DNA of 64,000 nt from Micromonospora parva. Lineage in GTDB: Bacteria > Actinomycetota > Actinomycetes > Mycobacteriales > Micromonosporaceae. The notes beneath the pieces are model-generated. The model worked only from the letters and a program-made list of their open reading frames with translations, had not been told where the DNA came from and ran no database searches. Numbering within the stretch: the first letter of the stretch is position 1; every line of letters starts with the position of its first letter. The stretch spans positions 248,001-312,000 of the forward strand of contig NZ_JNZS01000004.1 of assembly GCF_000718515.1 (NCBI RefSeq), given 5' to 3'. Positions 27,737-45,573 of this stretch are shown in pieces. The translations under genes were made by a program, and so were the position numbers.

Positions 27737-27751
27737 GCCGTCCTCCGAACG

Positions 27752-29203: not shown

Positions 29204-31825
29204 GTGGTGGATTCCACCGAGGTAACGATCAGGGACCGCCTCCGAGATGTTTTCGCTGGCCGGCACTCAGAGCTGCGGCGCATCTGCGCAGCGACCGACC
29301 GGCGCGGATCCGCCGGCATCGCGTTGATCGGCCCGGAAGGCGTGGGCAAGAGCCGGCTGCAGACCGAGGCCGCCCACCGGGCGGACCCGGCGCGACACCA
29401 CGTCATCCGGGCCGTCACCACCGTGGCGACCGCCAACGTCCCGTTCGGCGCGCTCGCCGAACACCTACCGTCCGGGCTGCTCCGCTCACCGTTCACGGGC
29501 GACGCGCTCCGGGTCGCGGCCGAGGCGCTGCTCAAGCCGGCCGGCAAGCGCCGTCTGACGCTTCTCGTGGACGACGCTCCCCTGCTGGACGAGGCATCCG
29601 CCGCGCTGGCGGTGCAGCTCGCCCGGCGCGGCGAACTCTTCCTCCTCGCCGCGGTGCGTCCCGACCGGCGGCTGCCGCGCCCGATCGCGGACCTGTGGAC
29701 CGACGGGCTGGCCGAGTGGATCGAGGTTGGCCCGCTCAGCCGCGACGACGTCCACCAGATCCTCGGTGAGGCGCTGTCCGGCCAGGTGGAAGGTGCTCTG
29801 GTTCAGCGGTTCTGGGAGGCCACCGCGGGCAACGCGTTGCTGGTACGCGAGCTGCTGACCGCTCAGTTGGAGGCGAACCGGCTGGTGACCGAGAACGGCA
29901 TGTGGATGCTTCGTGGCCCGTTCGCCATCCCGTCCTGGCTCACCGGGCTGATCGACGAGCGGCTCGCGGCGGTGTCGCCGGAATGCCGTTCCGCCATGGA
30001 GCTGCTCGCCGTCACCGAGCCGATCGGCCCGAACGTGCTCGGCGAGCTGGTCTCCGCTGACGTGCTCGAAGCAGCGGAAGCGCACGGTCTCATCACTATC
30101 GAGCGAAGCGGTGGCCAGGACCTCGCCCGCCTGACGTACCCGATCTATGGAGATGTCCTGCGTGCCGTCACGCCGCGTCTGCGCGCGCGACGGTGGCTCG
30201 GTCAGTGCGCCAGCCTGATGGAGGCGAGCAGCCACGATCCGGTCGACCTCGCGCGGACCGTACGGTGGCAGCTGGCCTGTGGCCAGCGGCCGTCCCCGGA
30301 GAACACTGCGGTCGCCGCCAGGGCCGCACGGTCGGCACTGGATTTCGAGCTCGCCGGGCAGCTGGCCCAGCGCGAGCTGGCCGCCGGTCGGGGGACGGCG
30401 GTGATCGAACCGCTCGGCTACGGCCTGCTGTTCGCCGGCCGCCCGGCGGAAGCCGAGTCCGCGCTGTCCGGTCTCGGTCGGCTGGACTGCGACTTCGACC
30501 GGGCCCGGGTCGCCATGGTGCGCGCGTTCAACCTCTACTTCGGACTCGACCGGCAGGGGCCCGCCGAGGCGCTGCTGGCGGCGGCGGTCGACGAGGTCGT
30601 CGACCCGGTCGCCCGTCGGCGGCTGGTCGCCCGGCAGGCGCTGCTGCGTGCTCTCTCGGACGCCCCGAAGGATGCCCTGGAGTTCGCCGCCGGGGCGCCG
30701 GACGAGCCGGAAGCCCAGGTGGCCGCCGGCCTGGCCATGGTCTTCTCCGGCCGCCCGCACGAGGGACTCGACCTGCTGGCCGGCGAGTGGCCGGACGAGG
30801 CACCGTGGCTCTCCGTTCTCGCCGACCTGGGCACCGTCCACGGCATGCTGTGGACCGCGCAGTTCGCCGATGCGGAGGAGCGGGCCCGCATCAGCTACGA
30901 ACGGGCGCTCGCCAACCGGTGGCAGTTCGCGACCCTGGTGTCGTGCCTGCTGCGCGGCCTGGTCGCCCGGATGCGGGGGCAGCTGCGGGACCAGGCGTCC
31001 TGGTGCCGTGAGGGCATCTCGATCGCCCGTGAGCAGAGGTCGAACAACATGCTGGCGGTGTTGCTGGGGCTGCTCGCGCACAGCTACGCGCTGACCGGCG
31101 AACCCGACGCCGCGGCCAGCACGTTGGCCGAGGCCGACCGCTTGGACGGGGTGTCCCTGCGGCTGCTGAGCCCCTGGACGGAACTCAACCGCGCCTGGGT
31201 CATCGGCGCCCGGCACGGCGACGCCGCCGCGCACGCGCAGTGGACCGCGCGACTGGCCCGGGACCGGGGTTCGGCAGGTTTCGAGACGCTGGCCCTGCAC
31301 GACGCGGCGCGCCTGGGCGCTCCGCGACCAGCCGCCGACCGGCTGCGGACGCTCGCGGGCCAGTCCGGGCGACTCCTCGGGAAGTCCTACGCCCTGCACG
31401 CCCGGGCGATGGCGGAGGGCGACGCGGCGGCGCTCGCGAAGGCCTCCGCCGACTTCGCCGAAATGGGTAGCCCGCTGCTGGCCGCGGAGGCCGCCGCCGA
31501 GGAGTCCGAGCGGCACCGGTCCGATGGCCGTCTGGCCATGGCGTCCACCGCCGCCGCCCGCGCCCTCATGTTCATGCGCCACTGCGACGAGATCCCCCGC
31601 TCGCCCGCGTTGTCAGCGCTGGCGCCGCCACGCCTCACGCCCCGCGAGGGTGAGATCGCCGAGCTCGCCGCCGGAGGGCTGTCCAGCCGCGAGATCGCCC
31701 GAACCCTCGTGCTGTCGGTGCGGACGGTGGAGAACCACCTGCACCGGGTCTACCGCAAGCTCGGCATCACCAACCGGGGGGAGCTCGGCGCGCTGAGCGT
31801 GCTGCTCACCCGGCCGCAGACCTGA
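29204..31825 (+). CDS. LAL-type LuxR-family regulator (large ATP-binding)
   Basis: 873 residues from GTG 29204. Walker A lies at about 45 (GPEGVGKSRLQTEA), Walker B in RLTLLVDDAPLLDEASA, a long helical/TPR-like middle follows, and the C-terminal LuxR HTH is RLTPREGEIAELAAGGLSSREIARTLVLSVRTVENHLHRVYRKLGI. LAL proteins are pathway-specific activators in actinomycete clusters. It is the only plus-strand gene among the minus-strand operons and is divergent from the glycosyltransferase. It may respond to ATP/ADP and an inducer; the ligand is unknown. Confidence 0.92.
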   Translation: MVDSTEVTIRDRLRDVFAGRHSELRRICAATDRRGSAGIALIGPEGVGKSRLQTEAAHRADPARHHVIRAVTTVATANVPFGALAEHLPSGLLRSPFTGDALRVAAEALLKPAGKRRLTLLVDDAPLLDEASAALAVQLARRGELFLLAAVRPDRRLPRPIADLWTDGLAEWIEVGPLSRDDVHQILGEALSGQVEGALVQRFWEATAGNALLVRELLTAQLEANRLVTENGMWMLRGPFAIPSWLTGLIDERLAAVSPECRSAMELLAVTEPIGPNVLGELVSADVLEAAEAHGLITIERSGGQDLARLTYPIYGDVLRAVTPRLRARRWLGQCASLMEASSHDPVDLARTVRWQLACGQRPSPENTAVAARAARSALDFELAGQLAQRELAAGRGTAVIEPLGYGLLFAGRPAEAESALSGLGRLDCDFDRARVAMVRAFNLYFGLDRQGPAEALLAAAVDEVVDPVARRRLVARQALLRALSDAPKDALEFAAGAPDEPEAQVAAGLAMVFSGRPHEGLDLLAGEWPDEAPWLSVLADLGTVHGMLWTAQFADAEERARISYERALANRWQFATLVSCLLRGLVARMRGQLRDQASWCREGISIAREQRSNNMLAVLLGLLAHSYALTGEPDAAASTLAEADRLDGVSLRLLSPWTELNRAWVIGARHGDAAAHAQWTARLARDRGSAGFETLALHDAARLGAPRPAADRLRTLAGQSGRLLGKSYALHARAMAEGDAAALAKASADFAEMGSPLLAAEAAAEESERHRSDGRLAMASTAAARALMFMRHCDEIPRSPALSALAPPRLTPREGEIAELAAGGLSSREIARTLVLSVRTVENHLHRVYRKLGITNRGELGALSVLLTRPQT

Positions 31826-31936: not shown

Positions 31937-33178
31937 TCAGTTGATGACGCCGGCGCCCACCGTGTGATTCGTCTCCTCGTCGATGAGGATGAAGGAGCCG
32001 GTGAGCCGATTGCGGGAGTACGGGTCACACAACAGCGGCTGGGTCACCCGCAGCTGGAGCCGGCTGATCTCGTTGCACCGCAACTCGGTGGGATCGGGAT
32101 CGCGCCGCAGTGTGTTGACGTCGAGCCGGTACTGCAGATCCCGGATGACCGCGCGCACGGTCCGGGTGGTGTGCTTGAGCAGCAGCCGAGCCGGCGGCCG
32201 GAGCGCCCGTTCGTTCATCCAGACCACCATGGCGTCGATGTCCTGGACCACGGCCGGCGCGTTGTGCGGCCGGCAGATCATGTCCCCACGGGACACGTCC
32301 AGGTCGTCGGCGAGCCGCAGCACCACCGACATCGGCGGCGTGGCCTCATCGACCGGCCCGTCCGGACCGTCGATGGCGGCGACCCGGGTGGTCAGCCCGG
32401 AGGGCAGGTGCATGACCTCGTCACCGGGGCGCAGCACCCCGCCGGCGACCTGACCGGCGTAACCGCGGTAGTCGGGGCAGGCACTGGACTGCGGGCGGAT
32501 CACGTACTGCACCGGGAAGCGGACGTCGACCAGGTTGCGGTCCGAGGCGATGTGCACGTTCTCCAGGTGATGCAGCAGCGAGGTGCCTTCGTACCAGGGC
32601 ATCTCGGTCGAGCGACTCACCACGTTGTCCCCGTGCAGCGCGCTGATCGGCACGAAGGTGACGTCCCGCGTGGCCATCCTCGTGGTGAACGCCGAGAACT
32701 CCGCCCGAATACTGTCGAAAACGCCCTGGTCATACCCGACCAGATCCATCTTGTTGACGCAGACCACCAGGTGCGGCACGCCGAGCAGGCCGAGCAGGAA
32801 CGTGTGCCGCCGGCTCTGCTCGACCATGCCCTTCGTGGCGTCCACCAGGACGATGGCCAGGTCCGCCGTGGAGGCGCCGGTCACCATGTTCCGGGTGTAC
32901 TGGGCGTGGCCGGGGGTGTCGGCGAGGATGAACTTGCGCTTGGGCGTGGCGAAGTAGCCGTACGCCACGTCGATGGTGATGCCCTGCTCACGTTCCGCCC
33001 GCAGGCCGTCCATCAGCAGTGCGAGGTTGGTGTACTCGTCGCCACGCCGACGGCTGACGTCCTCGACCGCGGCGAGCCGGTCGGTGAAGGTGGACTTGGA
33101 GTCGTAGAGCAGCCGTCCGATGAGTGTGCTCTTGCCGTCGTCCACCGAGCCGGCGGTGGCGAACCGGAGGATGTCCAT
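31937..33178 (-). CDS. cysN: Sulfate adenylyltransferase large subunit (GTPase)
   Basis: 413 residues, EF-Tu-like. GTP-binding motifs: GSVDDGKSTLIGRLLYDSK, DTPGHAQYTRNMVTGAS, VNKMDLVGYD and the switch segment EREQGITIDVAYGYF. With CysD it makes adenosine 5'-phosphosulfate (APS) from sulfate and ATP. There is no fused APS kinase domain, and none elsewhere in the cluster, so PAPS formation must rely on a kinase encoded outside the window. It is the last gene of the long core operon, 2 bp after cysD. Confidence 0.95.
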   Translation of the reverse strand: MDILRFATAGSVDDGKSTLIGRLLYDSKSTFTDRLAAVEDVSRRRGDEYTNLALLMDGLRAEREQGITIDVAYGYFATPKRKFILADTPGHAQYTRNMVTGASTADLAIVLVDATKGMVEQSRRHTFLLGLLGVPHLVVCVNKMDLVGYDQGVFDSIRAEFSAFTTRMATRDVTFVPISALHGDNVVSRSTEMPWYEGTSLLHHLENVHIASDRNLVDVRFPVQYVIRPQSSACPDYRGYAGQVAGGVLRPGDEVMHLPSGLTTRVAAIDGPDGPVDEATPPMSVVLRLADDLDVSRGDMICRPHNAPAVVQDIDAMVVWMNERALRPPARLLLKHTTRTVRAVIRDLQYRLDVNTLRRDPDPTELRCNEISRLQLRVTQPLLCDPYSRNRLTGSFILIDEETNHTVGAGVIN

Positions 33179-33180
33179 GA

Positions 33181-34071
33181 TCAGAAGTACCCTTCCCGCT
33201 TGCGGTCCTCCATGGCGGCCTCGCTGGTCCGGTCGTCCGCCCGGGTCGCGCCGCGTTCGGTGATCCTGGTGGTCGCCACCTCCTGGATGATGTCGGCGAC
33301 CGTCCGCGCGCCGGAGAGGACCGCCCCCGTGCAGGTCATGTCACCGACCGTCCGGTACCGCACGGTCTCCTCGGACACCACCTCAGTGGGGTCCGGCGCT
33401 TGGTACGGGTTCTCCGCCAGCAGCATGCCGTCCCGCTCGAACACCCGCCGCCGGTGCGCGAAATAGATCGGCGGCACGTCGAGCTCGTCGCGGGCGATGT
33501 AGCGCCAGACGTCGAGTTCCGTCCAGTTGGACAGCGGGAAGACCCGGATGTGCTCGCCCGGCCGGATGCGGGTGTTGAACAGGTTCCACAGCTCCGGGCG
33601 CTGGTTTCTCGGGTCCCACTGGCCGATCTCGTCGCGGAAGGAGAAGATGCGCTCCTTGGCCCGGGCCTTCTCCTCGTCGCGTCGGGCTCCGCCGAACGCC
33701 ACGTCGAAGCGGTGCTCGGCGATGATGTCCAGCAGCGTGGTGGTCTGCAACCGGTTGCGGCTGGCCCGGCGTCCGGTCGGCTCGACCACCCGCCCGGAGT
33801 CGATCGAGTCCTGCACCGAGGCCACGATCAGCCGCACGCCCAGCTCGGCGACGCGCTTGTCGCGGTAGTCGAGGACCTCCGGGAAGTTGTGCCCGGTGTC
33901 GACGTGGACCAACGCGAACGGCATCGGCGCCGGCCGGAACGCCTTCTCCGCCAGGCGGAGCATGACGATCGAGTCCTTGCCGCCGGAGAAGAGCAGCGCC
34001 GGCCGCTCGAACTCGGAGGCCACCTCGCGGATGATGTGGATCGACTCTGCTTCCAGCATTTCCAGACTCAT
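33181..34071 (-). CDS. cysD: Sulfate adenylyltransferase small subunit
   Basis: 296 residues from ATG 34071, overlapping the SDR stop (ATGA). PP-loop ATP pyrophosphatase motif ALLFSGGKDSIVMLRLAEKAF, then HVDTGHNFPEVLDYRD, AFGGARRDEEKARAKERIFSFRD and FPLSNWTELDVWRYI, all diagnostic of CysD. It works as a heterodimer with CysN. Its location in the operon of a sulfotransferase indicates that it boosts activated sulfate for product sulfation rather than cysteine synthesis. Confidence 0.95.
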   Translation of the reverse strand: MSLEMLEAESIHIIREVASEFERPALLFSGGKDSIVMLRLAEKAFRPAPMPFALVHVDTGHNFPEVLDYRDKRVAELGVRLIVASVQDSIDSGRVVEPTGRRASRNRLQTTTLLDIIAEHRFDVAFGGARRDEEKARAKERIFSFRDEIGQWDPRNQRPELWNLFNTRIRPGEHIRVFPLSNWTELDVWRYIARDELDVPPIYFAHRRRVFERDGMLLAENPYQAPDPTEVVSEETVRYRTVGDMTCTGAVLSGARTVADIIQEVATTRITERGATRADDRTSEAAMEDRKREGYF

Positions 34072-34850
34072 GTGACACCTCGCGTGTTTCCGCCATCGAC
34101 CAGCAGCACCGTGCCGGTCACGAAGCCCGCCTGCTCGCTGGCGAGGAAGGCGGCGAGCGCACCGAAGTCCGCTGGCTGCCCGACCCGGCCGAGCGGCACC
34201 TCGGCGATGATCTCCTTGAGCGCGGCCTCGCCGTCGATGGCGGACCGCGCCGCCACGAACCCGTCGAAGGCCGGCGTCTGGTGCACGCCGGGGGCCAGCA
34301 CGTTCACCGTGATGCCGCTGGCGCCGACCGCGTGGACCACACCCTTGGCGAAGCCGAGCACGCCCAACCGGGCGGTCGCGGACATCGCGGTGCCGGGCAG
34401 CGGTTGACGTACGGCCTCCGAGGTGATCAGCAGGATCCGTCCCCAACCGGCCCGGCGCAGGTGCGGCAGGGCCGCCAACGTGATCGAGATGTGGGGCAGC
34501 AACGACCCCTCGACGCCCTGCCGATAGTCGTCCACTGTGAACGTGTCGGCCTGGCCGTGCGGCACGCCGGGCGAGTTGGTGACCACGACGTGCAGCGCGC
34601 CGAACTCCTCGGCCGTCTGGTTCACCCAGCGCGTCACGTCCGCGTCGTCACGGACGTCCACCTCGACGGAGAGCACCCGCCCAGGACCGGCCTCGTCGAC
34701 CAGCTTGTGCGCCGCCGCCAGTCGCTGTGGGTCGCGGGCCGCGATGGACACGTTCGCGCCCTCGGCCGCCAACGCGCGAGCGACCGCCAGCCCGAGGCCG
34801 CTGCTGGCGGCGGCCACCAACGCCGTCCGCCCGGACAGTCCGAGATCCAT
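34068..34850 (-). CDS. Short-chain dehydrogenase/reductase with atypical active site
   Basis: 260 residues; ATG 34850 overlaps the sulfotransferase stop (TGATG). Rossmann motif LVAAASSGLGLAVARALAAEG and the C-terminal PADFGALAAFLASEQAGFVTGTVLLVDGGN are clear. However, the YxxxK catalytic pair is missing: after ITSEAVRQP the expected YSASKAA segment reads MSATARLG. The catalytic Ser remains. It belongs to an SDR branch without the canonical Tyr/Lys, so it may use other residues or bind without reducing. Its position between sulfotransferase and cysD suggests action on the sulfated or pre-sulfated intermediate. Confidence 0.85.
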   Translation of the reverse strand: MDLGLSGRTALVAAASSGLGLAVARALAAEGANVSIAARDPQRLAAAHKLVDEAGPGRVLSVEVDVRDDADVTRWVNQTAEEFGALHVVVTNSPGVPHGQADTFTVDDYRQGVEGSLLPHISITLAALPHLRRAGWGRILLITSEAVRQPLPGTAMSATARLGVLGFAKGVVHAVGASGITVNVLAPGVHQTPAFDGFVAARSAIDGEAALKEIIAEVPLGRVGQPADFGALAAFLASEQAGFVTGTVLLVDGGNTRGVT

Positions 34851-35752
34851 CACGCCACCTTTCGCGCCAGCGTCGGATACCCGTAGCGGCGTAGCAGGGG
34901 CAGGGCGAGCGCCGTGGTCGTGGCGGTGGGCAGCGCCGGCAGCTCCGTACGCCAACGGTCGTCCGGCCGGATCAACACGGTGCCCTGACCGAGCCGATCC
35001 GGGTTGCCGGTGACCGTGTGGTTGGTGCCGAGGGTCACCTTGCCCTCCTCGGTCACCGGTGGCTCGTCGTCGAGCCCCGCGAAACGCAGCACATCGGCCA
35101 GCACCTCACGGGGCTGCCGGGTCAGGTCCTCGTGTCGGATTCGGAGATAGCGGCCCGCCGCGGCCCGGCCGACGTACTCGGAGGCCACGTTGAAGCCCAC
35201 CCAGTTCGCCGTGCTCTGGGCCGGGCTCATCGGCTCGATGTACCGCTTGCCGCGCTGGTACGAGTAGGTGGTTGCCCGCGGGTCACGGACGATGTGCAGC
35301 ACCCGCACGTCCACATCGGAGCGTCGCAGCAGGGCGGCCGCCTCGGCCGGGTACTTGGAGCTGTCCACCACCGCCCGCTCCGCGCCCCGCCGCGCCAGCT
35401 CCCGGTAGACGGCGACGGTGCGGTCCAGGACCTGGGTGACGTGCGGGGGCGTGCTGGCCAGCCGGGCGCGGGTGTGCCGGGTCCGCAGGCCGGCCTGCTG
35501 CGACGACATCATCTGGCGGGCGAGCTTGGTGGGCTCGGCGTCGCCGAACGTGGCGATCACCGACGACCACAGCGTGCACTGCCGGATCTGCTCGCCGCAC
35601 CCGCACAGCGAGTTCGTGCCGCTGTCCAGCAGGCCGTTCTTCCACAGGTAGTGCAGTTCGCCGGCGTGCAGCACGCCGGGCAGCTCGTTGAGGACGTTGC
35701 CGAGGATGGTGCTGCCGCTGCGCAGCCAGCCGGTGATGTAGATGACCTTCAT
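34850..35752 (-). CDS. PAPS-dependent sulfotransferase
   Basis: 300 residues; ATG 35752 overlaps the encapsulin stop (ATGA). The 5'-phosphosulfate loop is visible at the start (ITGWLRSGSTILGNVL) and the 3'-phosphate loop as VVDSSKYPAEAA... and HIVRDPRATTYSYQRGKR. A CGCGEQIRQC segment adds Cys pairs. It transfers sulfate from PAPS to a hydroxyl or amine of the pathway intermediate. In azabicyclic amino acid pathways sulfation creates a leaving group; whether that applies here is open. It is directly coupled to the shell protein gene. Confidence 0.92.
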   Translation of the reverse strand: MKVIYITGWLRSGSTILGNVLNELPGVLHAGELHYLWKNGLLDSGTNSLCGCGEQIRQCTLWSSVIATFGDAEPTKLARQMMSSQQAGLRTRHTRARLASTPPHVTQVLDRTVAVYRELARRGAERAVVDSSKYPAEAAALLRRSDVDVRVLHIVRDPRATTYSYQRGKRYIEPMSPAQSTANWVGFNVASEYVGRAAAGRYLRIRHEDLTRQPREVLADVLRFAGLDDEPPVTEEGKVTLGTNHTVTGNPDRLGQGTVLIRPDDRWRTELPALPTATTTALALPLLRRYGYPTLARKVA

Positions 35753-36630
35753 CGCTGACCGTCCGTCAACAGGAGGAAGTGCTGGGGCAGGTGCACGGCC
35801 AGGCCCACGGAGGTGCGGGCCTCCACGACGTCGCCGTGCAGCGTCAGCGACGACCGGCTGGGGTCGAGCAGCGTCACGGCGGCCCGGAAATCCCCGAGCA
35901 GCGCCTGACCGCGCGGCATCATCCGGGTACGTGAGACCTTGATTCCGGCCTCGGCGAGTCGGCCGAGCAGCCCGTCGCGGACCAGGTCCCAGTAGTGGGC
36001 GGGGTGCACGACGATGCCGTCGCAGGAACCACCGGTCTCCTCGACCGCCCCCGCCGCGGCGGTCAACGCCGCACCGAGGTCGCCGCCAATGGTCGACCTG
36101 CGCATCTCGGGCAGCTTGAGCAGCCCCGCGATCCGACCGTCGGCGGTGCCGTGCAGCAGGGCCTGGTTCTCCACCACGCCCATCCGGACCAGCACCCGGT
36201 AGTCGATGAACGCGGCGAGCAACGCGGGCTCGTGCCGCAGGTCGGCGGGCAGGGGCACGGACACGCTCAGCTCGGTCAGCTCGGCGTACTCGACGGTGGG
36301 CTCGAAGGTCGCCTCCGGCGTGCTGGCGTACGCCGTGCCCGCGTTCGCGTACTCGCTCTTCGGAGCCTCGCGTACGTAGGCGAGCGTCTGATCGGAGACC
36401 GAGGCCACCTTCAACAGGTGCCGCACGGTGTAGCGCGGGCGGCTCTTGAACAGCGGGAACGAGGCGGTCAGGTGTGCCCGGATCGGCACCACCACGTCGT
36501 CGCCGTTCTGCACCCGGGCAACCGACATGGCGAATTCCTCACCCGGGCTGCGTCGGGCGAGCGTGGGGTCCGCAAGCGTCTGTCGGGTCACTTCCAGCGC
36601 GCTGGCGCTGGGTTGCATCGTGGTGGTCAT
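35749..36630 (-). CDS. HK97-fold encapsulin-like shell protein (family 3, natural-product type)
   Basis: 293 residues from ATG 36630 (GGGG at 5-6 nt; ATG 36633 also possible). It matches phage HK97-type major capsid/encapsulin architecture: a spine/E-loop region (about 45-95), the P-domain segment DLRHEPALLAAFIDYRVLVRMGVVENQALLHG, then GIAGLLK-like, the A-domain strand GIVVHPAHYWDLVRDG and MPRGQALLGDFRAAVTLLDPSRSSLTLHG. No portal, terminase or protease genes are near, and it overlaps its neighbours by 2-4 bp inside a biosynthetic operon, so it is not a prophage remnant. It probably self-assembles into a protein compartment holding one or more pathway enzymes. Cargo and targeting signal are unknown. 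Confidence 0.82.
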   Translation of the reverse strand: MTTTMQPSASALEVTRQTLADPTLARRSPGEEFAMSVARVQNGDDVVVPIRAHLTASFPLFKSRPRYTVRHLLKVASVSDQTLAYVREAPKSEYANAGTAYASTPEATFEPTVEYAELTELSVSVPLPADLRHEPALLAAFIDYRVLVRMGVVENQALLHGTADGRIAGLLKLPEMRRSTIGGDLGAALTAAAGAVEETGGSCDGIVVHPAHYWDLVRDGLLGRLAEAGIKVSRTRMMPRGQALLGDFRAAVTLLDPSRSSLTLHGDVVEARTSVGLAVHLPQHFLLLTDGQR

Positions 36631-37535
36631 CATTTCCCCTTCAGGACAGCGCTGAGAACCGCGGATGTCGTGAGCCCCAACGCGGCGAGTGTCTCGTCGT
36701 GGTTGCCGCCCTCGGCCGGCCAGTCGGCGCCGGCGTTCACACTCAGCACCTCGCGGTCGGGCAGCAGCAGCGCGAGGGTGGAGGCCACGCTGCCGGCAGC
36801 GCGGTGCTCCTCGACGACGACCAGCCGTCGCGCGTCGGCCAGCTGCGGCAGGGCGAGCGTCAGGCTTTCCTCGTCCACCCAGCACAGGTGCGCGTGGCCG
36901 AGGTCCGGCTGCTGCTCGGTGGCGGCCTGGCACAGTGCCGTCGGCTTCTCCCCGATGGATACGACGCAGGTGTCACCACCCATCGGGTTCAACCAGGTGA
37001 CAGCGCCCCGACCGGCCGGGGCGAACGACGCGTCGAACACCTCGTTGCGGCCCAGCCGCACGTAGCACGGCCAGTCGCCGTCGGCGGCGGCCCGGATCGC
37101 CTCGCGGGTCTCGGCCTCACCGGCGGGTACGGCGATCCGCACACCCGGCAGGCTCTGCATCACCGCGAGGTCCTCCAGGCAGTGGTGGGTCGGCCCGAAC
37201 CACGCGCCGGACACCCCGCCGTACGGGCTGACCAGGACCACGGGGGCACCGAGGTACCCGAGGCCGAGCTTGACACTCTCCCCCGCGCGGAACGCCGCGA
37301 ACGTGGCGAACGTGCTGACGAACGGCCGCAGCCCGGCGGAGGCGAGGCCCACCGCGATGTCCACCGCGGACGCTTCGGCGATACCGAGGTTCAGGAACCG
37401 GTCGGGAAACCGGTCCTGGAAACAGTGCTTGGGGCCGCCGAGATCCGCCTCCAGGCACACAATGCGCGGGTCGTCCGCGGCCAGCTCGGTCAGCTCGAGC
37501 CGGTACGCCTCCCGCGCGGACACCGTGGCCGTCAT
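36630..37535 (-). CDS. Transketolase-like, C-terminal subunit
   Basis: 301 residues from ATG 37535, overlapping the N-terminal subunit stop (TGATG). It carries the pyrimidine-binding domain (RFLNLGIAEASAVDIAVGLASAGLRPFVSTFATFAAFRAGESVK) and GPTHHCLEDLAVMQSLPGVRIAVPAG, as in split transketolases and DXS-like proteins, plus the C-terminal transketolase domain (about 180-301). With the N-terminal subunit it should transfer a two-carbon ketol unit. In carrier-protein pathways such a pair extends the LysW-bound semialdehyde. Confidence 0.9.
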   Translation of the reverse strand: MTATVSAREAYRLELTELAADDPRIVCLEADLGGPKHCFQDRFPDRFLNLGIAEASAVDIAVGLASAGLRPFVSTFATFAAFRAGESVKLGLGYLGAPVVLVSPYGGVSGAWFGPTHHCLEDLAVMQSLPGVRIAVPAGEAETREAIRAAADGDWPCYVRLGRNEVFDASFAPAGRGAVTWLNPMGGDTCVVSIGEKPTALCQAATEQQPDLGHAHLCWVDEESLTLALPQLADARRLVVVEEHRAAGSVASTLALLLPDREVLSVNAGADWPAEGGNHDETLAALGLTTSAVLSAVLKGK

Positions 37536-38308
37536 CACCGGATCGCCGCCTTCCACTGCCGCGCCCGCGCGGGACTGATCTTCACGTAGTGCGAGCCGGC
37601 CTTGCCCTCGGTGGCCGGCACGCCCTTGCCCTTCACCGTGGTGGCCAGCACCGCGAGCGGCCGGTCGGTCGGCGCCATCGTCCGCACCAACTTCTCGATG
37701 TCGTGCCCGTCGACCTCGGCCACCTCGAACCCGAACGCGGCCAGCCGGGCCGGCAGGTCGGTCAGCGGCGAGATGTCGGAGACGTACCCGTCGTTCTGGC
37801 CACCGTTGAGGTCCACCACCACGGTGAGCCCGCCGACCCGCTTGGCCTGGGCCACCTGTAGCGCCTCCCAGACCAGGCCCTCCTGCAACTCGCCGTCACC
37901 GACCACCGCGATGGCCCCGCCCGGCCGGTTCAGCAACCGTCGGGAGAGGGCCCAGCCGACCGCGTACGCGAGCCCGTGGCCGAGACTGCCGGTGGGGAAC
38001 CGGACGCCGGGCACCTTCGGGCCGGGATGTCCGGTGTAGGGCGACCCGGCGCGGCCGTACCGGGGTGCCGGGTTCTCCTCGATGACGCCGACCTCGTGCA
38101 GCACCGCGTAGAGGGCGGCCGCCGCGTGGCCCTTGCTGAGGACGACCTCCGTGCCCGGCTCGGACCGGGCGACGGCATACGCGGCGACCAGGATGTCCAC
38201 CACCGAAAGGCTGCCGCCGAGGTGACACCCGACCCCGCTGGCCGCCATGTCGACCACCAGCCGGCGAGCCCGGCTGGCCTGCTCCCGAAGCAGATCGATC
38301 TCGTCCAT
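37535..38308 (-). CDS. Transketolase-like, N-terminal (ThDP-binding) subunit
   Basis: 257 residues from ATG 38308, overlapping the kinase-hydrolase stop (TGATG). The ThDP/Mg2+ motif is GDGELQEGLVWEALQVAQAKRVGGLTVVVDLNG, with VVLSKGHAAAALYAVLHEVG and TGSLGHGLAYAVGWALS further upstream in the protein, as in transketolase N-domains. The frame is open upstream but the start is fixed by the overlap and the domain boundary. It pairs with the next gene to make a two-subunit enzyme. Confidence 0.9.
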   Translation of the reverse strand: MDEIDLLREQASRARRLVVDMAASGVGCHLGGSLSVVDILVAAYAVARSEPGTEVVLSKGHAAAALYAVLHEVGVIEENPAPRYGRAGSPYTGHPGPKVPGVRFPTGSLGHGLAYAVGWALSRRLLNRPGGAIAVVGDGELQEGLVWEALQVAQAKRVGGLTVVVDLNGGQNDGYVSDISPLTDLPARLAAFGFEVAEVDGHDIEKLVRTMAPTDRPLAVLATTVKGKGVPATEGKAGSHYVKISPARARQWKAAIR

Positions 38309-40155
38309 CACCGCACACACCAATCCCGTACGGCGGCGGACAACACCGTCCGCGCCCGCCGGTACTCGTCGGCTGACAGCCGCTCGTCGGGCGTGTGGTC
38401 CAGGTGAGCATCTCCCGGCCCGTACGCCACCATCGGAACGCCGCGCCACCTGGTGGCGAGCGTGTTCATGTCGCTGCTCCCCTTCTTCGCGAGCAGCCGT
38501 GGAGCGTCACCGGTCGCCGCGCGCAGCGCCCGGGTGAACGCCCGTACCAGCGGATCGGTCCGGGGTGTGCTCACCGGCGGCGTGGCGAGCAGCAGCTCAC
38601 CGTCCTCGAAGACGGACAGCATGCTGTCCAGTTCGGTTCCCGGCGGGACCCGGACATCCAGCACCGCCGAGGCGGTCTGCGTGCCACCGGAGCCGCCCGA
38701 GGCCAGATCGAGCACCGCGAACAACGCTTCCGGACTGCACTTGCCGACCTCGGCCTCGACCTCGCCGATGAGGTCGACGAGGGAACTGGCGGCGGTCCGC
38801 CGTTCCTTGCCCGCCGTGTGACCGGTGGTCCGGGCGACATCCATCCGCACCTTGCAGACGCCGTGGTAGCCGATGGTCACCGCACCGGCGCCGCTGGGCT
38901 CGCCGATGATGACCGCGTCCGCCGGGTAGTGGTCACGCGCGTAGAGCGAACCGGACGCCGTCCGCTCCTCCTCCACGGTGCCGACCACCCGCACCGTGAC
39001 ACCCTCGGGTGGTTCGAACTCCACGAGCGTCTGCAGGAACACGGCCAGGCTGGCCTTGGCGTCCACGCAGCCCCGGCCGGTCAGCGCGGCACCGTCCCAG
39101 GCCACCGGCCAGCGGTAGGGGACGGTGTCCAGGTGGCCGAGCATCAGCAGCCGGCGTGGCCCGCTGCCGCGCGTGGCGACCAGGTTGCCGGCTGGGTCGA
39201 TGACCGCGTGCACGCCCTTCTCGGTCAGCCACTTCAGCAGGTACAGCGCCAGTTCCCGTTCGCCGCCGGAGACCGAGGAGATCTCCACCATGCGGGTCAG
39301 CAGGTCCAGGTCCGGCTCCGGTGCGGCGGCCCGCCAGAACCGGGTACCGCCGTGGGTGTTTGCGGTGTGCGGGCCGGTTATGGCGACGTCAGCGGTCCCC
39401 TTCAGGGCCAGCTCCGCCGCCCGGACCTTCTGCCGCATCCGTCCGCTCGCGTACGTCATTCCCTCACCACTGCACAGGTGCGGCAGGGTGCTGGTGCGGT
39501 CGGACGGGTCGGCGAGCAGGCCCGGGGTGCCGGTCACCAGGCGCAGGTGATCGGCGTCGAGCGCGTTCGCCACCTCGGCGGCGAGCACGTCGGCATCGAC
39601 GTTGATCGGCGCGCCGCCGTCGCTCGCGGTCACCGGCGGTGACACGCAGACCACGTCGAAGGTGTCCAGGAGGGACAGCAGCCGCGCCACGTCCACCGCG
39701 GAGACCGCGCCGGCGCGGTGGTCGCGGACCAGCCGCTGCCGGTCGCCCTCGACCACCCGCAGCGGCCGGTTCGGGGTGCCCGTGACCAGCCCCTCCGGTG
39801 TGGCCGTCGCGGCGAACACCGTCAACTCACGCTGGCCCAGGTTCTCCCGGATCCGGGGGAGGGTCAGCTGTTCGTACGCGGCGACGATGTGCGGCATCTC
39901 GTCGGGCGGGCAGTACCGCACCTCGTCGCCGGAGGCCAGTCGCAGCATCCGCATCGGGCGCTCGATACCGGCGTAGTAGTCAGCGATGTCGGCCGCGCCG
40001 CCGGCGACCAGCAACAGTCGGGCACCGCCCGCGCTCAGCGCGGCCAGGTCGTCGTAGACGGAGGCGTGCCGCAGGCTCGAACTGCCCACCTTGACCACGT
40101 ACAGCGGCCGGTAGGGGAAGATCCCCGCCAACGCCTCGTTATTCATCACGGCCAT
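38308..40155 (-). CDS. Fused [LysW]-aminoacyl kinase (LysZ) and [LysW]-amino acid hydrolase (LysK)
   Basis: 615 residues from ATG 40155 (GGAGG 7 nt upstream). Residues about 15-270 form an amino acid kinase domain (LYVVKVGSSSLRHASVYDDL, RLLLVAGGAADI, INVDADVLAAEVANALDADHLRLVTGTPGLL). Residues about 280-615 form an M20/ArgE-like metallohydrolase: zinc ligands in MLGHLDTVPY, GRGCVDAKASLAV, EEERTASGS, IGEPSG and the late HLDHTPDERL. In known LysW pathways these are separate enzymes: LysZ phosphorylates the carrier-bound carboxylate and LysK releases the finished amino acid. Here first-activation and release are fused into one chain. Confidence 0.87.
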   Translation of the reverse strand: MAVMNNEALAGIFPYRPLYVVKVGSSSLRHASVYDDLAALSAGGARLLLVAGGAADIADYYAGIERPMRMLRLASGDEVRYCPPDEMPHIVAAYEQLTLPRIRENLGQRELTVFAATATPEGLVTGTPNRPLRVVEGDRQRLVRDHRAGAVSAVDVARLLSLLDTFDVVCVSPPVTASDGGAPINVDADVLAAEVANALDADHLRLVTGTPGLLADPSDRTSTLPHLCSGEGMTYASGRMRQKVRAAELALKGTADVAITGPHTANTHGGTRFWRAAAPEPDLDLLTRMVEISSVSGGERELALYLLKWLTEKGVHAVIDPAGNLVATRGSGPRRLLMLGHLDTVPYRWPVAWDGAALTGRGCVDAKASLAVFLQTLVEFEPPEGVTVRVVGTVEEERTASGSLYARDHYPADAVIIGEPSGAGAVTIGYHGVCKVRMDVARTTGHTAGKERRTAASSLVDLIGEVEAEVGKCSPEALFAVLDLASGGSGGTQTASAVLDVRVPPGTELDSMLSVFEDGELLLATPPVSTPRTDPLVRAFTRALRAATGDAPRLLAKKGSSDMNTLATRWRGVPMVAYGPGDAHLDHTPDERLSADEYRRARTVLSAAVRDWCVR

Positions 40156-41174
40156 CCGCCGGCCTCCGGGAGTCCTAGCCGTTCGTCCATTCCGTGGATT
40201 CGGTTCATCGCCTGCACCGCCTGGCCGGCGCCGCCCTTGATGAGGTTGTCCAGGGCGGACACCACCACCCAGCGGTCACCGGACACCACCGCCGCGACCT
40301 CGGCGACGTTGGCGCCCACGACCGTCTTGAGCATCGGCATCCCCATCGGGGACCGCCCGGCCGCCACCCGCACGAAGGGCGCGTCGGCGTACGCCCGGGC
40401 GAACGCCCGGCGCACGTCGCTCTCCCCCGCACCGGGCTTCAGCCGCCCGTACGCCGAGACCATGACGCCGCGCGCGACCGGCAGGCTGAAGGTGGAGAAC
40501 TGCAGGTCCGGAGCCCGACCGGTCAGGTCGGTGAGGGCCTGGCGTACCTCGGGGGAGTGCCGGTGACCGTGCAGCTTGTGCACCCGGACGTTCCCGTCGC
40601 GTACGGCCGGATGCTCCACACTGCCGGTGCCGCTGCCGCTCGACCCCGACTTGGCGTCCACCACCACGTCCTCCGCCGCCAGGTCCGCCTTGAACAGCGG
40701 GTAGAGCGCGTAGATGGTGGCCGCCGCCATGCAGCCCGGCAGGTTGAGCACCGGTTCTGTCGGGGTAGGCGCGAACTCCGGGATGTAGTAGGGGATGGGC
40801 TGGCGCCAGCCGCCAGCCGACGCGGGATAGTGGCGCTCGACCTGGTCCGTCTGGCGCAGCCGGTAATCGCCGGCCAGGTTGATCACGACCTTGGCGCGGT
40901 TGGCCACGTCGTCGAGCACTGACGGCAGTACGCCGTTGGGCAGGCAGGCGAACGCGACGTCCACGTCCGGCATCTCGTCGAGCTTGCGCATGTGGTGCCC
41001 GCCGATCGACATGTTGCGCAACCCCGGCACGACCTGCCCGACGCGCTGACCGGCGTGCCGGGCCGAGGACACGAACGTCGGCACCACCTGGGGGTGGGCG
41101 GCCAGCAGCCGGATCAGCTCGGCTCCGATGAACCCGCTGCCGCCGAGGACGGCGGCGCTGATGTGCTCGCTCAC
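40146..41174 (-). CDS. lysY: [LysW]-aminoacyl-phosphate reductase (LysY/ArgC-like)
   Basis: 342 residues; GTG 41174 overlaps the lysX stop (GTGA). NADPH-binding start is AAVLGGSGFIGAELIRLLAAHPQV; the catalytic Cys is in NLPGCMAAATIYALYPL; DAKSGSSGSGTG and KLHGHRHSPEVRQAL complete the ArgC/LysY pattern. It reduces the acyl phosphate made by LysZ on the carrier to a semialdehyde, the proposed acceptor for the transketolase. It overlaps the kinase-hydrolase start by 10 bp. Confidence 0.92.
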   Translation of the reverse strand: MSEHISAAVLGGSGFIGAELIRLLAAHPQVVPTFVSSARHAGQRVGQVVPGLRNMSIGGHHMRKLDEMPDVDVAFACLPNGVLPSVLDDVANRAKVVINLAGDYRLRQTDQVERHYPASAGGWRQPIPYYIPEFAPTPTEPVLNLPGCMAAATIYALYPLFKADLAAEDVVVDAKSGSSGSGTGSVEHPAVRDGNVRVHKLHGHRHSPEVRQALTDLTGRAPDLQFSTFSLPVARGVMVSAYGRLKPGAGESDVRRAFARAYADAPFVRVAAGRSPMGMPMLKTVVGANVAEVAAVVSGDRWVVVSALDNLIKGGAGQAVQAMNRIHGMDERLGLPEAGGWP

Positions 41175-42049
41175 GCCGCCACCCCCGCCCGTGCGAACAC
41201 CGCGTCCCGCACGTACGCGGCGACGTGGCCGGCGATGTCGACGCCGTGGACCTTCGAGGACTGGGCGAAGTCCGGGTTGGTGTTGACCTCCAGCACGTAC
41301 ATCTCGCCGGTCTCCCTGGACTCGGCCAGGTCGACGCCGTAGAACCCGGGGCCGAAGCACGCCACGACCCGGGCGCACAGTTCGCGGGCGCGGTCCGAGA
41401 TCGGGATGGGCTCCACGGCGCCGCCCTGGTGGGTGTTGGTGCGCAGACCGGCGCCCACCTGGCGGTACGCCACGATCGGACGGTCCCCCACCACGTGCAC
41501 CCGCTCGTTGAAGCCGGGCTTGGGCACGTACTGCTGCACCACGACGGGGAACTCCTTGCCGGCCGGGTCCAACGCCTCCCGGCCGCCGGCCCAGGCGTCG
41601 AACTGCGCCTCGTCGGTGATGCGGACGATCCCGCGTCCCCACGAGCCGCTGATCGGCTTGACGACAGCGTCCCCGCCGAGCTCGTCGACGTAGCCACGAA
41701 CCTGCTCGACGGTGAACGCGACGTGCGTCGTCGGGTGCGGGACGTCGTGGTTGGCGAAGGCGATCGCCTGGAGATCCTTGGCGAGACACAGCCGCACCGC
41801 GTGCGGCGTGTTCAGCGTCTCGATGTCGGCGTGCTCGAACCGGGCCGCCATCGAGGCCAGTTCCCGGTGGGACACGTTGCGCAGCAGCACCATCCGGGGC
41901 CGCGGCGCGGCGTTGTTGAGTATGGCGGCGGTATGGCGGGGCAGCGCCGACTGCGCGGTCAGCCCGGTCGCCCGGAGCGCCCCCAGGAGCAGCCGCTCCT
42001 CCGGGCGCACCATGGTCACGGAGACCAGCACATCGGCCGTCTCACTCAC
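41171..42049 (-). CDS. lysX: [LysW]-amino acid ligase, ATP-grasp (LysX/RimK-like)
   Basis: 292 residues; GTG 42049 lies inside lysW (8-bp overlap). ATP-grasp motifs: GDAVVKPISGSWGRGIVRITDEAQ, VVVQQYVPKPGFNERVHVVGDRPIVAYRQ, GFYGVDLAESRETGEMYVLEVNTNPDF. It joins the alpha-amino group of glutamate, 2-aminoadipate or an analogue to the C-terminal Glu of LysW with ATP. Substrate choice is not readable with certainty. Confidence 0.93.
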   Translation of the reverse strand: MSETADVLVSVTMVRPEERLLLGALRATGLTAQSALPRHTAAILNNAAPRPRMVLLRNVSHRELASMAARFEHADIETLNTPHAVRLCLAKDLQAIAFANHDVPHPTTHVAFTVEQVRGYVDELGGDAVVKPISGSWGRGIVRITDEAQFDAWAGGREALDPAGKEFPVVVQQYVPKPGFNERVHVVGDRPIVAYRQVGAGLRTNTHQGGAVEPIPISDRARELCARVVACFGPGFYGVDLAESRETGEMYVLEVNTNPDFAQSSKVHGVDIAGHVAAYVRDAVFARAGVAA

Positions 42050-42227
42050 CCCAGTCCTCCTCGATCTCCGGTGCGCGGTCGAGCCGGATCGCGGGCGTGA
42101 CCTCGACTACCTCGTGTTCCTGGCCGCAGCCGCGGCACGACAGGATGTCGCCCAGCTCCGCCTCGGTCGACACGACGACCTCGGTGTCGCACTCCAGGCA
42201 GACCGGTGCGGTGGTCAGATTGGACAT
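42042..42227 (-). CDS. lysW: LysW-type amino-group carrier protein
   Basis: 61 residues. Two zinc knuckle pairs (CLEC about 10-13 and CRGC about 31-34) and the diagnostic acidic C-terminus EEDWGE, whose terminal Glu carries the substrate through an isopeptide bond. Such carriers hold amino acid intermediates in lysine/arginine synthesis in Thermus and archaea, and in secondary metabolism in Streptomyces (vazabitide, azinomycin and ficellomycin-type pathways). It is coupled to lysX by overlap. Confidence 0.96.
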   Translation of the reverse strand: MSNLTTAPVCLECDTEVVVSTEAELGDILSCRGCGQEHEVVEVTPAIRLDRAPEIEEDWGE

Positions 42228-42244
42228 GGGATCCCTCCGGAAGA

Positions 42245-42949
42245 CTAGGCTCGCTCGAAATCGATGATCATCATGTCGCGGGTCGCGACTGTCGCACCCT
42301 CGGGTCCGATCGGGGTTACTTCGTGTTCCATTGCGCGATCGTCGAGCAGAATGGTTTCCATAGGATTCACCATCGCGTGCTCGAACAACGGCTCGCTCTC
42401 ACCCTTGCGGAAGACACGGCTGATGCCACCGGCGCAATTCTGCCGGCCGACCAGATGGATGGCCACATAGTCGTGGCCGTCGCTGTGCCGCCCCTCCGGG
42501 GCGGGCGCCGAAGTGCCTTCACTGCCGGCCGTCACACGGATCATGTGGACGGTTATCAACCAGTCGCTGTCAATTCCGCTGGCACGGCTGACAAAGCCCA
42601 GGTCGTGTGTGATGACGGCTTGGAAGTTTGCGTTCTCGTACGCCTCCGGCGTGATCGGCGCGAACTGCCTGGCCTGCCCACCGTAGACCCGGTTCACGTC
42701 CGTCGCCTGGTAGAACGGCTGGGCGGGCAGCGTTTCCAGGGCACCTCCGGCGCGTCCCAGCAGCCGCCCCAACCGGCGGTATCGGCGTGTCCGGTGGCTC
42801 GGTTGGACGTACGGGTCGATTGGAAGGTCCTCCCATAATTTCGCGAATTCATACCACCCGTCACTGACGGAAACGGGTAGTTGCTCGTGGGCCCACCCGT
42901 TCTTCACGATGTCCTGCGCGCGGAGCAGGGCGAAATTGTTGATAGGCAT
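42245..42949 (-). CDS. 2-oxoglutarate/Fe(II) dioxygenase family protein (PF10014-like)
   Basis: 234 residues. The HxD pair of the iron site is in EGRHSDGHDYVAIHLVGR, the distal His in LLDDRAMEHEVTPIG and the 2-oxoglutarate Arg in VATRDMMIIDF. This pattern fits the family that includes amino acid hydroxylases such as isoleucine 4-hydroxylase. It probably hydroxylates an amino acid or carrier-bound intermediate. It is the first gene of the core operon, with the cluster promoter element 26 bp upstream and lysW 17 bp downstream. Confidence 0.88.
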   Translation of the reverse strand: MPINNFALLRAQDIVKNGWAHEQLPVSVSDGWYEFAKLWEDLPIDPYVQPSHRTRRYRRLGRLLGRAGGALETLPAQPFYQATDVNRVYGGQARQFAPITPEAYENANFQAVITHDLGFVSRASGIDSDWLITVHMIRVTAGSEGTSAPAPEGRHSDGHDYVAIHLVGRQNCAGGISRVFRKGESEPLFEHAMVNPMETILLDDRAMEHEVTPIGPEGATVATRDMMIIDFERA

Positions 42950-43024: not shown

Positions 43025-43494
43025 GACCTCGGTAAATGGCACCCAGAACCCGTTTGAGCCGCCACCCACGCCGTTGTGCGTCGAGCTGCCGCTGGCGGAG
43101 TCGCGAGCCGGCGGGCGGCACAACGACAGTTGTGCTGGCCGACCTCGCCCGCACTGTTCACTGACGCCCGCCCGCGAGGCCCCCGTCGCCGCACCCTGCG
43201 CTCGGACCCGGTCAGACCCGCGAAGCTTCCTGTCAATCGCCTAGCGGTAGTAGCTCGGCCGGCTCGCCCGCATCGCCCGCGCCACTCCGACACGCGACTG
43301 ACGTGCGCAAACATCTCTAGTGTGGACATGGCGAGGGATGACGGCCCGGATATGCTACCTTCAAAACCCGGTTAGCCGGTATCACGCAAGCGGACCTGCG
43401 GTTGAGTAGCGCCGTCGAGACGAACGAGTGTCTGTTGTGTACCGCTTGCGTGGCGACTTCTTGCTACACCTTGTCCAGGAATTGGGAGGTAGCC
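43025..43494. other. Intergenic region between core operon and MFS gene
   Basis: No credible gene on either strand. CCGG-TTAG-CCGG at about 43371 and TTGAGT at 43402 followed by GTACC at 43439 (37 nt, one turn longer than in the conserved element) are possible plus-strand control sites. The MFS gene has GGGAGG at 43485-43490. Confidence 0.4.
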
Positions 43495-44715
43495 ATGGTG
43501 CACCAACGACGCGCGGTCTATGCCCTCACCGCGTTGTCCGCCGCCACTTTCTGTTACGTCACCACCGAAGTGCTTCCGATCGGTCTGCTCACGCTGATCG
43601 CGCCGGACCTGGGACGCTCCAGGTCGGAGACCGGTCTGCTGGTGACCGGGTACGCGGTGGTGGTCATGATCGTGGCGCTTCCGCTGACCCGGGTCACTCG
43701 ACGAGTACCCCGACGGCCGCTGCTCGCCGGCGCCCTCGGCGTGTTCGCCGCGGCGACGGCGGTGTCAGCCCTCGCCACCTCGTACGAGGTGCTGCTCGCC
43801 GCCCGGCTGGTGTCCGCCATCACCAACGGCGTCTTCTGGGCGGTGGTGTTCCCCGTGGCGATCTCGATGTTCCCCGAGAACATCCGAGGCCGCATCGTGG
43901 CGCGGCTGTCGATAGGCAACGCTCTCGGCCCGGTCCTCGGCGTACCGCTGGGCACCTGGTTGGGCGGACAGGCCGGCTGGCGGGCCGCCTTCGTCGCGAT
44001 GGCCGCCCTCGGCTTCGTCACCTGCATCGCGGTCGCCCTGCTCCTGCCGAGCGTCGCACCGCAACAGAGCGCGAGCGACGTGGGGCCGATGCCGGATCGG
44101 CAGCGTTTCGTGGTGCTCCTCGTCGCCACCATCCTCGCGGTCACCGGGGCCATGGGCGCGTTCACCTACATGACCGTGTTCCTCCTCGACGTGAGCGGGT
44201 TCGCCGCGGCATCTCTCGGCCTGCTGCTCTTCGTCCAGGGCTCGTTCGGCGTCGCCGGCACGTGGGCGGTCGGTCGGGTCCTGGACCGGTTCCCACTCGG
44301 TGTCGTGCTGGGGCTGCTCGGGCTCATCACCGCGGCGATGCTCGGCCTCTACGGGGTTGGTTCGAGCAAGATATTGACGATCCCTCTGCTCGCCGTGGCG
44401 GGCATGTCGTTCAGTTCGCTGATCGCGGGAATCCAGCACCGAATCATGCAGGTGGCCCCGTCGACCACCGACATGGCGTCCGCCAGCCTCAGCGTCGCGT
44501 TCAACTTCGGCCTCGCGGCCGGCTCGTTCATCGGCGCGGGCCTGCTGGCGACGGCCGGGGTCCGCGTCATCCCGTTGTTCGGTGGCCTGCTGACGGCCGC
44601 CGCGTTCGCGCTGCTCGCCTTCCACGAAATGTCCCGCAAGAAGAGGAGAGGCCATGAAACTGTCCGTCGTAATCCCGACCTACAACCGGTCGGACATTCT
44701 GCAGCTCACCCTTGA
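43495..44715 (+). CDS. MFS transporter (DHA1-like drug/product exporter)
   Basis: 406 residues from ATG 43495 (GGGAGG upstream). Twelve hydrophobic helices are discernible; between TM2 and TM3 is TRVTRRVPRRPLLAGALG and in TM5 GNALGPVLGVPLGTWLGGQAGWR, a motif C-like stretch of drug:H+ antiporters. It is likely the export and self-resistance pump for the cluster product. Its last 62 bp overlap the next gene in another frame, an unusually long overlap for functional genes. Confidence 0.9.
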   Translation: MVHQRRAVYALTALSAATFCYVTTEVLPIGLLTLIAPDLGRSRSETGLLVTGYAVVVMIVALPLTRVTRRVPRRPLLAGALGVFAAATAVSALATSYEVLLAARLVSAITNGVFWAVVFPVAISMFPENIRGRIVARLSIGNALGPVLGVPLGTWLGGQAGWRAAFVAMAALGFVTCIAVALLLPSVAPQQSASDVGPMPDRQRFVVLLVATILAVTGAMGAFTYMTVFLLDVSGFAAASLGLLLFVQGSFGVAGTWAVGRVLDRFPLGVVLGLLGLITAAMLGLYGVGSSKILTIPLLAVAGMSFSSLIAGIQHRIMQVAPSTTDMASASLSVAFNFGLAAGSFIGAGLLATAGVRVIPLFGGLLTAAAFALLAFHEMSRKKRRGHETVRRNPDLQPVGHSAAHP

Positions 44716-45517: not shown

Positions 45518-45573
45518 CCTGATCGCAGCTGGTATGCGGCCCGCACGGGCCACCTACCTTCGCGGCGCCCTCT

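Follow-up and report, generated by a model that had tools for sequence, protein, structure and literature searches.

On the minus strand of a 64,000-nucleotide stretch of Micromonospora parva DNA (assembly GCF_000718515.1, contig NZ_JNZS01000004.1, positions 248,001 to 312,000; the window), the gene at positions 35749-36633 is, by sequence profile and predicted fold, a Family 3 ("natural product") encapsulin, and relatives of this shell recur across actinobacterial genomes beside a sulfotransferase (ST) and a reductase. In the window the shell gene belongs to one tight operon of 12 minus-strand open reading frames (ORFs; 31937-42949), in which it directly adjoins an ST gene (34850-35752), itself followed by a gene for a protein of the short-chain dehydrogenase/reductase (SDR) fold (34068-34853). 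We judge the chances to be evenly balanced that the shell encloses or serves this reductase-ST pair as it acts on a reactive keto intermediate, one that shell-less relatives likely transaminate, a reading drawn from gene content, homology, co-occurrence and a predicted fold.

To follow the partners of the shell, we collected 62 loci from named genomes, all of them actinobacterial, by scanning contigs with two peptide patterns taken from a 31-shell alignment, a procedure biased toward window-like shells; two of the loci (L066 and L068) are duplicates within a single genome, and 13 end at contig ends, where absences are soft. By tblastn, an ST was found in 62/62 loci (in L075 as a fragment only) and an SDR in 60, the other two being L074, which is cut by a contig end, and L057, where shell and ST are present with no SDR in view. 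Gene calls and clustering placed an AMP-dependent ligase in 54 of these neighbourhoods, an acyl-CoA dehydrogenase in 39, the carrier protein LysW in 33 and CysD in 28. The precursor modules were mutually exclusive: amino-group carrier protein (AmCP) genes in 36 loci, a DegT aminotransferase in 18, an aspartate kinase with an ADH synthase in six (assigned by NCBIfam on one representative each) and none in two, L027 and L040, which hold LysZ-LysK but no other assignable precursor gene. The ST accompanied every module, and its placing with respect to shell and SDR took four forms or more; in one of them it lies on the opposite strand at a distance of four genes from the shell. A tree of 83 shells, built by a quick method, requires at least six changes of module, of which its strong branches force only two for AmCP and two for DegT, with long branches meeting, and co-occurrence within related clusters is partly descent. 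For rhizobial Family 3 clusters, section 9 of PMC8346489 describes SDRs with serine-type genes and names no ST, so that the rule of ST with shell may not hold outside actinobacteria. Other genes seen near the shell encode a carbamoyltransferase (L034, L036 and L041; L034 tested), a LanM-like protein (L055-L058, L061, L062 and L065; L056 tested) and a YcaO protein (L024, L025, L030, L031, L033, L039 and L051; L024 tested).

Across 300 genomes of the window's family, a shell above the cut-off was present in 42 (partly the same genomes as those of the 62 loci), a partner-type SDR in 34 and both in 32, and in 32/32 of the last group ST and SDR stand by the shell. A divergent class makes up 20 of these 32 (L120-L135, L137, L140, L141 and L177), with genes for DegT, MFS, ST, SDR, methyltransferase, shell, FAD oxidoreductase and racemase-like proteins. 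The other 10 shell genomes are without the usual ST and SDR; in all 10, an ST of family PF19798 adjoins the shell according to Pfam, and an aldo/keto reductase is present by profile (one of them short; 4/4 tested agreed in Pfam), together with a large AMP-binding/carrier/reductase protein (Pfam, 2/2 tested). These are loci L165-L174 (L165 at about 7.4-10.0 kb); the L174 shell gene (genome G425, 9049-9920) came out of gene calling in pieces of 52 and 238 aa, resembling a frameshift or misassembly. On the shell profile the divergent class scored 150-159 bits, the PF19798 class 170-221 bits and the usual shells 393-424 bits. Both ST families, PF13469 and PF19798, are P-loop sulfotransferases and are therefore better called non-orthologous than unrelated, and SDRs and aldo/keto reductases have different folds. 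A stricter rule, that this ST and this SDR always accompany the shell, was broken by the 10 of 42 shell genomes without that SDR and was widened to a sulfotransferase plus a reductase. In this form it covers the family: a sulfotransferase stands by the shell in 42/42 genomes, plus a reductase of one of the two families, and as far as gene content can tell the reductase-ST pair recurs beside the shell with non-orthologous enzymes. The first-pass annotation had tied the shell to sulfation, and the presence of an ST in every one of the 62 loci and 42 family genomes supports it.

The converse was examined in 40 of more than 150 ST matches, mostly the best-scoring ones after the first eight. All 22 loci with an ST profile score of at least 355 had SDR and shell, and the 18 loci at or below 301 lacked a shell as well as any SDR scoring above 34 bits (L150, one of these, is a contig of 3.9 kb). 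Genes resembling the ST are widespread in general, occurring in 231/300 genomes at E 1e-15. An SDR without a shell was seen in genome G441 (L175), whose cluster yielded no ST; G435 (L176), where the contig with ST and SDR is 6.3 kb long and breaks off at the ST, was left out of account.

The shell protein matched the encapsulin profile NF041188 (encap_f3) with 349.9 bits against a cut-off of 180, and its AlphaFold2 model (pLDDT 85.4, pTM 0.83) retrieved HK97 prohead chains as its best Foldseek matches (E 3.1e-18, TM 0.69/0.76), with encapsulins among the 50 best (9fy6, E 4e-13). The HK97-fold shell protein proposed in the first-pass annotation is thereby borne out, the profile and structure search that it had suggested against encapsulin families and HK97 capsids having matched both. 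In a sequence search of the PDB, all six matches at E ≤1 were phage capsids, so that the search brought up no Family 3 relative of known structure; Pfam returned a weak Phage_capsid match below cut-off. These capsid matches would suit a phage capsid, domesticated or a remnant, with no more than a chance place in a biosynthetic cluster, but the shell is kept near an ST in 62 loci across three precursor modules and is under purifying selection, with dN/dS values of 0.13-0.23 against three near relatives, a constraint similar to that of the operon enzymes. Moreover, no phage gene was found among the main ORFs at about 14-53 kb scanned by Pfam (some small ORFs lying outside the scan), and the gene sits amid ST, SDR and AmCP genes, a natural-product cluster context. 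With conservation, dN/dS and a phage-gene-free neighbourhood all disfavouring a capsid remnant, we consider it extremely improbable. The nearest shell relatives in named genomes come from Micromonospora (L016, 96% identity; L015, 93%).

The ST carries the sulfotransferase domain PF13469 (52 bits, cut-off 27) and the segments GWLRSGST and VRDPRAT, in keeping with a P-loop-like N-terminus, and a function as a 3'-phosphoadenosine 5'-phosphosulfate (PAPS)-type sulfotransferase is predicted. At E 0.1 its only relatives in the PDB were 4gox and the CurM sulfotransferase (4gbm), presumably both of a kind that attaches sulfate so that it can later act as a leaving group. The operon's sulfation set consists of this ST and an ATP sulfurylase, whose small subunit CysD (33181-34071; gene call, PAPS_reduct-type, PF01507 150 bits) and large subunit CysN (31937-33178; 413 aa, TIGR02034 544 bits, cut-off 336, without an APS-kinase domain) are encoded after the SDR. 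Pfam and NCBIfam detected no kinase for adenosine 5'-phosphosulfate (APS) among the 12 operon genes, and two clear matches lie on other contigs of the same genome; the sulfation machinery credited to the operon is thus its own as regards ATP sulfurylase and ST, with APS kinase encoded only elsewhere. A second CysN copy, 73% identical and about 112 kb away (G000:C4:167375-168613), is presumably the housekeeping one.

The SDR partner (PF13561) has an altered dyad, with S157-x-x-x-R161 replacing Y-x-x-x-K. In an alignment of the window SDR with 63 called proteins (64 rows), S-x-x-x-R is found in 60 partners including the window's, four other SDRs from Herbidospora loci retain Tyr and Lys, and the upstream Ser is conserved in 64/64 rows; a further 22/22 SDR partners also show S-x-x-x-R. 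The closest folds to the AlphaFold2 model (pLDDT 93.7) are 5idy/5idx, AerF (6jhb) and 5va8/5vps, several of them crystallised with NADP(H). These non-classical SDRs (AerF 6jh7/6jha/6jhb, 5idx/5idy, 5va8, 5vps and 2z1n) are 27-36% identical to the window SDR, and the five aligned (5va8, 5vps, 5idx, 6jh7 and 2z1n) likewise have no Y-x-x-x-K. From sequence and model, NADPH binding by the SDR partner is plausible, and plain ketone reduction is not assured.

The operon also holds a complete AmCP gene set, all on the minus strand: LysW (42042-42227; two CxxC motifs and a C-terminal Glu), the carrier-protein ligase LysX (41171-42049; TIGR00768 165 bits, above cut-off; TIGR02144 177 bits, below cut-off), an ArgC/LysY-type semialdehyde dehydrogenase (40146-41174; TIGR01850 258 bits, cut-off 233.6) and a fused LysZ (amino-acid kinase)-LysK (M20 hydrolase) protein (38308-40155; PF00696 and PF01546; TIGR01902 above cut-off, PRK04443 and PRK14058 below theirs). 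A transketolase split into N-terminal (37535-38311; PF00456) and C-terminal (36630-37556; PF02779) halves separates this set from the shell gene, and a 2-oxoglutarate-Fe(II) dioxygenase (42245-42949; PF10014 180 bits) opens the operon, its family (F25) being found in 6/62 shell loci, namely the six nearest operons. LysW was assigned by eye from CLEC...CRGC and a C-terminal EDWGE, which we take as its defining motifs, and the other genes by Pfam/NCBIfam family scans. The 12-gene operon with its named functions, and the embedding of the shell in a carrier-protein operon, accordingly stand as the first-pass annotation gave them; its overlaps of 2-14 bp almost throughout hold as to mostly overlapping genes, the measured values being 4-22 bp at 9 of 11 junctions in the gene calls, with gaps of 2 bp at CysN/CysD and 17 bp at LysW/dioxygenase.

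The carrier genes allow a comparison of clusters with and without a shell. A LysZ-LysK search of the 300 genomes (E 1e-45), which misses AmCP clusters with a distant LysK, including two with a shell (G581 and G599), identified 18 genomes, five with shell operons and 13 with shell-less clusters, a split that gives no estimate of frequency. Among the 13 shell-less clusters, 12 have a DegT-type aminotransferase, and the exception (L188) starts at a contig end. By contrast, none was found in the 36 AmCP shell loci with DegT-type and class III profiles applied within about 10 kb, nor by Pfam/NCBIfam in the window operon, and no class III aminotransferase occurs anywhere in the window; a GntR-fused aminotransferase at 50942-52963 is the only one among the window ORFs scanned. 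The aminotransferase profile, like that for the aldo/keto reductase, was built from loci later counted, and Pfam checked 5/12 and 4/10 of the respective calls. A PF19798 ST is present in 6/13 shell-less AmCP clusters, so the proposal that AmCP plus ST implies a shell was rejected, and 5/13 have both aminotransferase and ST; an S-x-x-x-R SDR is present in one (L175).

In LysX, ArgC and both halves of the transketolase, the window shows 51-69% identity to the shell-less L175 and L179-L183, where these genes are present, and 30-48% to AmCP genes from shell loci of other types; most of its carrier genes are closest to the shell-less clusters with an aminotransferase. Where intact, L175 and L179-L183 share the order LysW-LysX-[aminotransferase]-ArgC-LysZK-transketolase. 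A sample of six shell loci of other types gave identities of 46-65% to the window's shell, ST and SDR, as far as these genes were called there. Because of the identities and order of its carrier genes, the window operon resembles a shell-less AmCP layout, but has no aminotransferase and carries genes for shell, ST and SDR behind those for the transketolase.

This comparison bears on two other accounts of the shell. In the first, it would enclose the early steps on the LysW carrier, those of LysX or the transketolase, with the genes for sulfation as bystanders; the window shell gene does lie between transketolase and ST genes, and AmCP genes occur in 36/62 shell loci, but 24/62 have no AmCP gene in view and two more LysZK only, 13 of the 18 LysZ-LysK genomes have that cluster shell-less, and the ST is found in 62/62 loci, which makes this account quite unlikely. 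In the second, an azinomycin-type aziridine pathway, a neighbouring primary amine displaces the sulfate and the shell confines the alkylating product. The nearest ST structures, 4gox and the CurM enzyme, presumed above to be leaving-group installers, would agree with it, as would an aminotransferase acting from elsewhere in the genome. In azinomycin biosynthesis, as outlined in PMC9570651, transamination of what the transketolase makes is followed by sulfation and by closure of the aziridine, and the AmCP pathways to azinomycin and vazabitide described there share with the window the kinase and reductase route to a glutamate-derived semialdehyde, C2 extension by a split transketolase and a sulfation step. 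Unlike them, the window has an encapsulin and an S-x-x-x-R SDR and no aminotransferase that we could find, and the AmCP clusters that combine aminotransferase and ST (5/13) are all shell-less. The aziridine analogy drawn in the first-pass annotation is therefore retained in its shared sulfation and carrier genes and weakened by the aminotransferase counts (0/36 in shell AmCP loci vs 12/13 in shell-less ones), and we hold the aziridine pathway to be improbable.

Returning to a shell that serves the reductase-ST pair, a possible route can be written for the window. LysX would load glutamate onto LysW, LysZ and ArgC would form the carrier-bound semialdehyde, and the split transketolase would add two carbons to give carrier-bound 2-amino-5,7-dihydroxy-6-oxoheptanoate, whose C6 ketone would be retained without transamination, given that the operon yielded no gene for an aminotransferase. 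LysK would then free the C7 hydroxy-keto amino acid, whose amine could attack the ketone and close a ring, and the resulting cyclic imine would be reduced by the SDR partner to a 5-hydroxy-6-(hydroxymethyl)pipecolate. The ST would sulfate a hydroxyl, with CysD/CysN giving APS and an APS kinase required from elsewhere in the genome. With its sulfate on the 7-oxygen, next to the nitrogen of the ring, the product would be a beta-amino sulfate and hence a latent alkylator, a reason for having a compartment. The ligase and acyl-CoA dehydrogenase encoded beyond the operon belong to families whose representatives resemble cyclohexanecarboxylate-CoA ligase (TIGR03208) and cyclohexanecarboxyl-CoA dehydrogenase (TIGR03207), both below cut-off, a resemblance to six-ring carboxylate enzymes that fits a ring acid and is no proof of it. 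Loci with aspartate kinase and ADH synthase presumably also make a C7 keto-amino acid, and in the PF19798 class an aldehyde would pass through an alcohol to a sulfate, so that the element common to the shell classes would be a carbonyl reduced and then sulfated beside the shell; these precursor proposals cover the AmCP, ADH-synthase and PF19798 kinds of shell locus, not the DegT kinds. A 7-O-sulfated pipecolate would further fit the 6-chloromethyl-5-methoxypipecolate of chloromyxamide, as that compound is described in PMC8346489. The fullest version of the proposal is put forward only tentatively. In it, Family 3 shells would be sulfation compartments, constant companions of a reductase-ST pair, and here the shell would have replaced the aminotransferase branch, with cyclisation and reduction of the keto-amino acid and its conversion, within the shell, to an electrophile, a 7-O-sulfo pipecolate able to form an aziridine or a chloromethyl group.

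Several observations count against the proposed role of the shell. The window SDR is without the classical Y-x-x-x-K, which leaves reduction by it insecure. A DegT aminotransferase is present in 24/32 of the family genomes with ST, SDR and shell (20 divergent and four L066-type; 25 with G431) as well as in the 18/62 named-genome loci, so the statement that shell loci have no aminotransferase is limited to the AmCP kind, and for that kind it comes from the limited profile search given above. The six ADH-synthase loci would give a different hydroxylation pattern. The window LysZ-LysK does not discriminate between the two sets of clusters, being 54-57% identical (L182, 47%) to shell-less versions and 55-60% to fused shell-type ones. 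The chloromyxamide cluster is myxobacterial and enters the comparison by its shell family and product as described in PMC8346489. Finally, a comparison of ST C-termini found no cargo-loading tail common to them, several being almost tailless; on reading, no cargo motif common to the ends of ligase, acyl-CoA dehydrogenase and LysZK was found, and no terminal extension is evident on the SDR.

Partners without a shared cargo peptide would be expected if the shell protein had lost the ability to form a closed particle and worked as an enzyme or scaffold that recruits ST and SDR on its surface, and the invariant motifs GGSCDG and HLPQH in the shell alignment could be read in the same way. However, the model has the HK97 fold, and such motifs are equally explicable as assembly contacts, and we regard such an enzyme or scaffold as rather unlikely, though worth keeping in mind. 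C-terminal LWPGE occurs in three Streptomyces STs and RWPGE in a fourth, and tails of this sort are possible class-specific loading peptides, to judge from their sequences. The STs of L024, L030, L031 and L032 have a long Pro/Ala-rich tail with [LR]WPGE[FLV][RW], and those of L018, L019, L039, L051 and L073 short Trp-containing tails (WTSD, WIWG, WIWA and WTWD).

The biosynthetic cluster likely extends beyond the 12 genes, past a LuxR-type regulator conserved in window-type loci (29204-31825, plus strand; PF00196; F27, 6/62 loci), because the minus-strand genes at 23395-28951 have homologues in other shell loci. These encode a GT2-like protein (27752-28951; PF00535; F36, 5/62 loci), the AMP-dependent ligase (26096-27736; PF00501; F3, 54/62), the acyl-CoA dehydrogenase (24945-26099; PF00441; F4, 39/62) and an aldehyde dehydrogenase (23395-25239; PF00171; F20, 7/62; 70% identical to its L020 homologue), with best matches in shell loci 70-96% identical, and the order ligase-acyl-CoA dehydrogenase-aldehyde dehydrogenase is common to the window and L020. 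Nucleotide-sugar genes (UDP-glucose dehydrogenase, epimerases and GT2) lie on both flanks (16328-18756 and 44654-49262). A 409-aa ORF at 43428-44657 (plus strand), divergent from the operon, had no Pfam match at E 0.001 and was skipped by a codon-based gene caller. Farther out on the minus strand are a BTAD/NB-ARC/TPR regulator (18817-21939) and an ABATE/CGNR regulator (14213-14992), the latter with the Pfam domains of F13, a family present at 20/62 shell loci.

Family 3 natural product encapsulins were named by Andreas and Giessen in 2021 (PMC8346489), who listed sulfotransferases, SDRs, nonribosomal peptide synthetase/polyketide synthase and AmCP genes among their neighbours, noted conserved ST-SDR pairs in "many" clusters (section 9) and suggested sequestration of a reactive aldehyde or ketone by the shell. 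As far as that text describes them, these clusters have the same shell family (NF041188), ST, SDR and LysW-type AmCP genes as the window, whose operon is thus a member of a kind known since 2021. The same text refers to one cluster studied by experiment, that for chloromyxamide in Myxococcus sp. MCy10608, whose pathway and shell role it gives as unknown; it combines a Family 3 encapsulin with a 6-substituted, 5-oxygenated pipecolate, the skeleton predicted for the window. A search mostly outside subscription journals found no later paper on Family 3 shell function. Beyond the text of PMC8346489, whose supplementary figures may hold some of this, the tie is here counted and holds with non-orthologous enzymes, the SDR dyad is altered, and the presence of shell and aminotransferase is contrasted.

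Collectively, the partner counts narrow the question, in that the shell goes with a reductase and a sulfotransferase and not with a given precursor route. Set against its relatives that have an aminotransferase and no shell, the window operon offers a ready-made comparison for the chemical effect of the shell, and, if the fullest proposal is true, an electrophile would be made behind a virus-derived wall.

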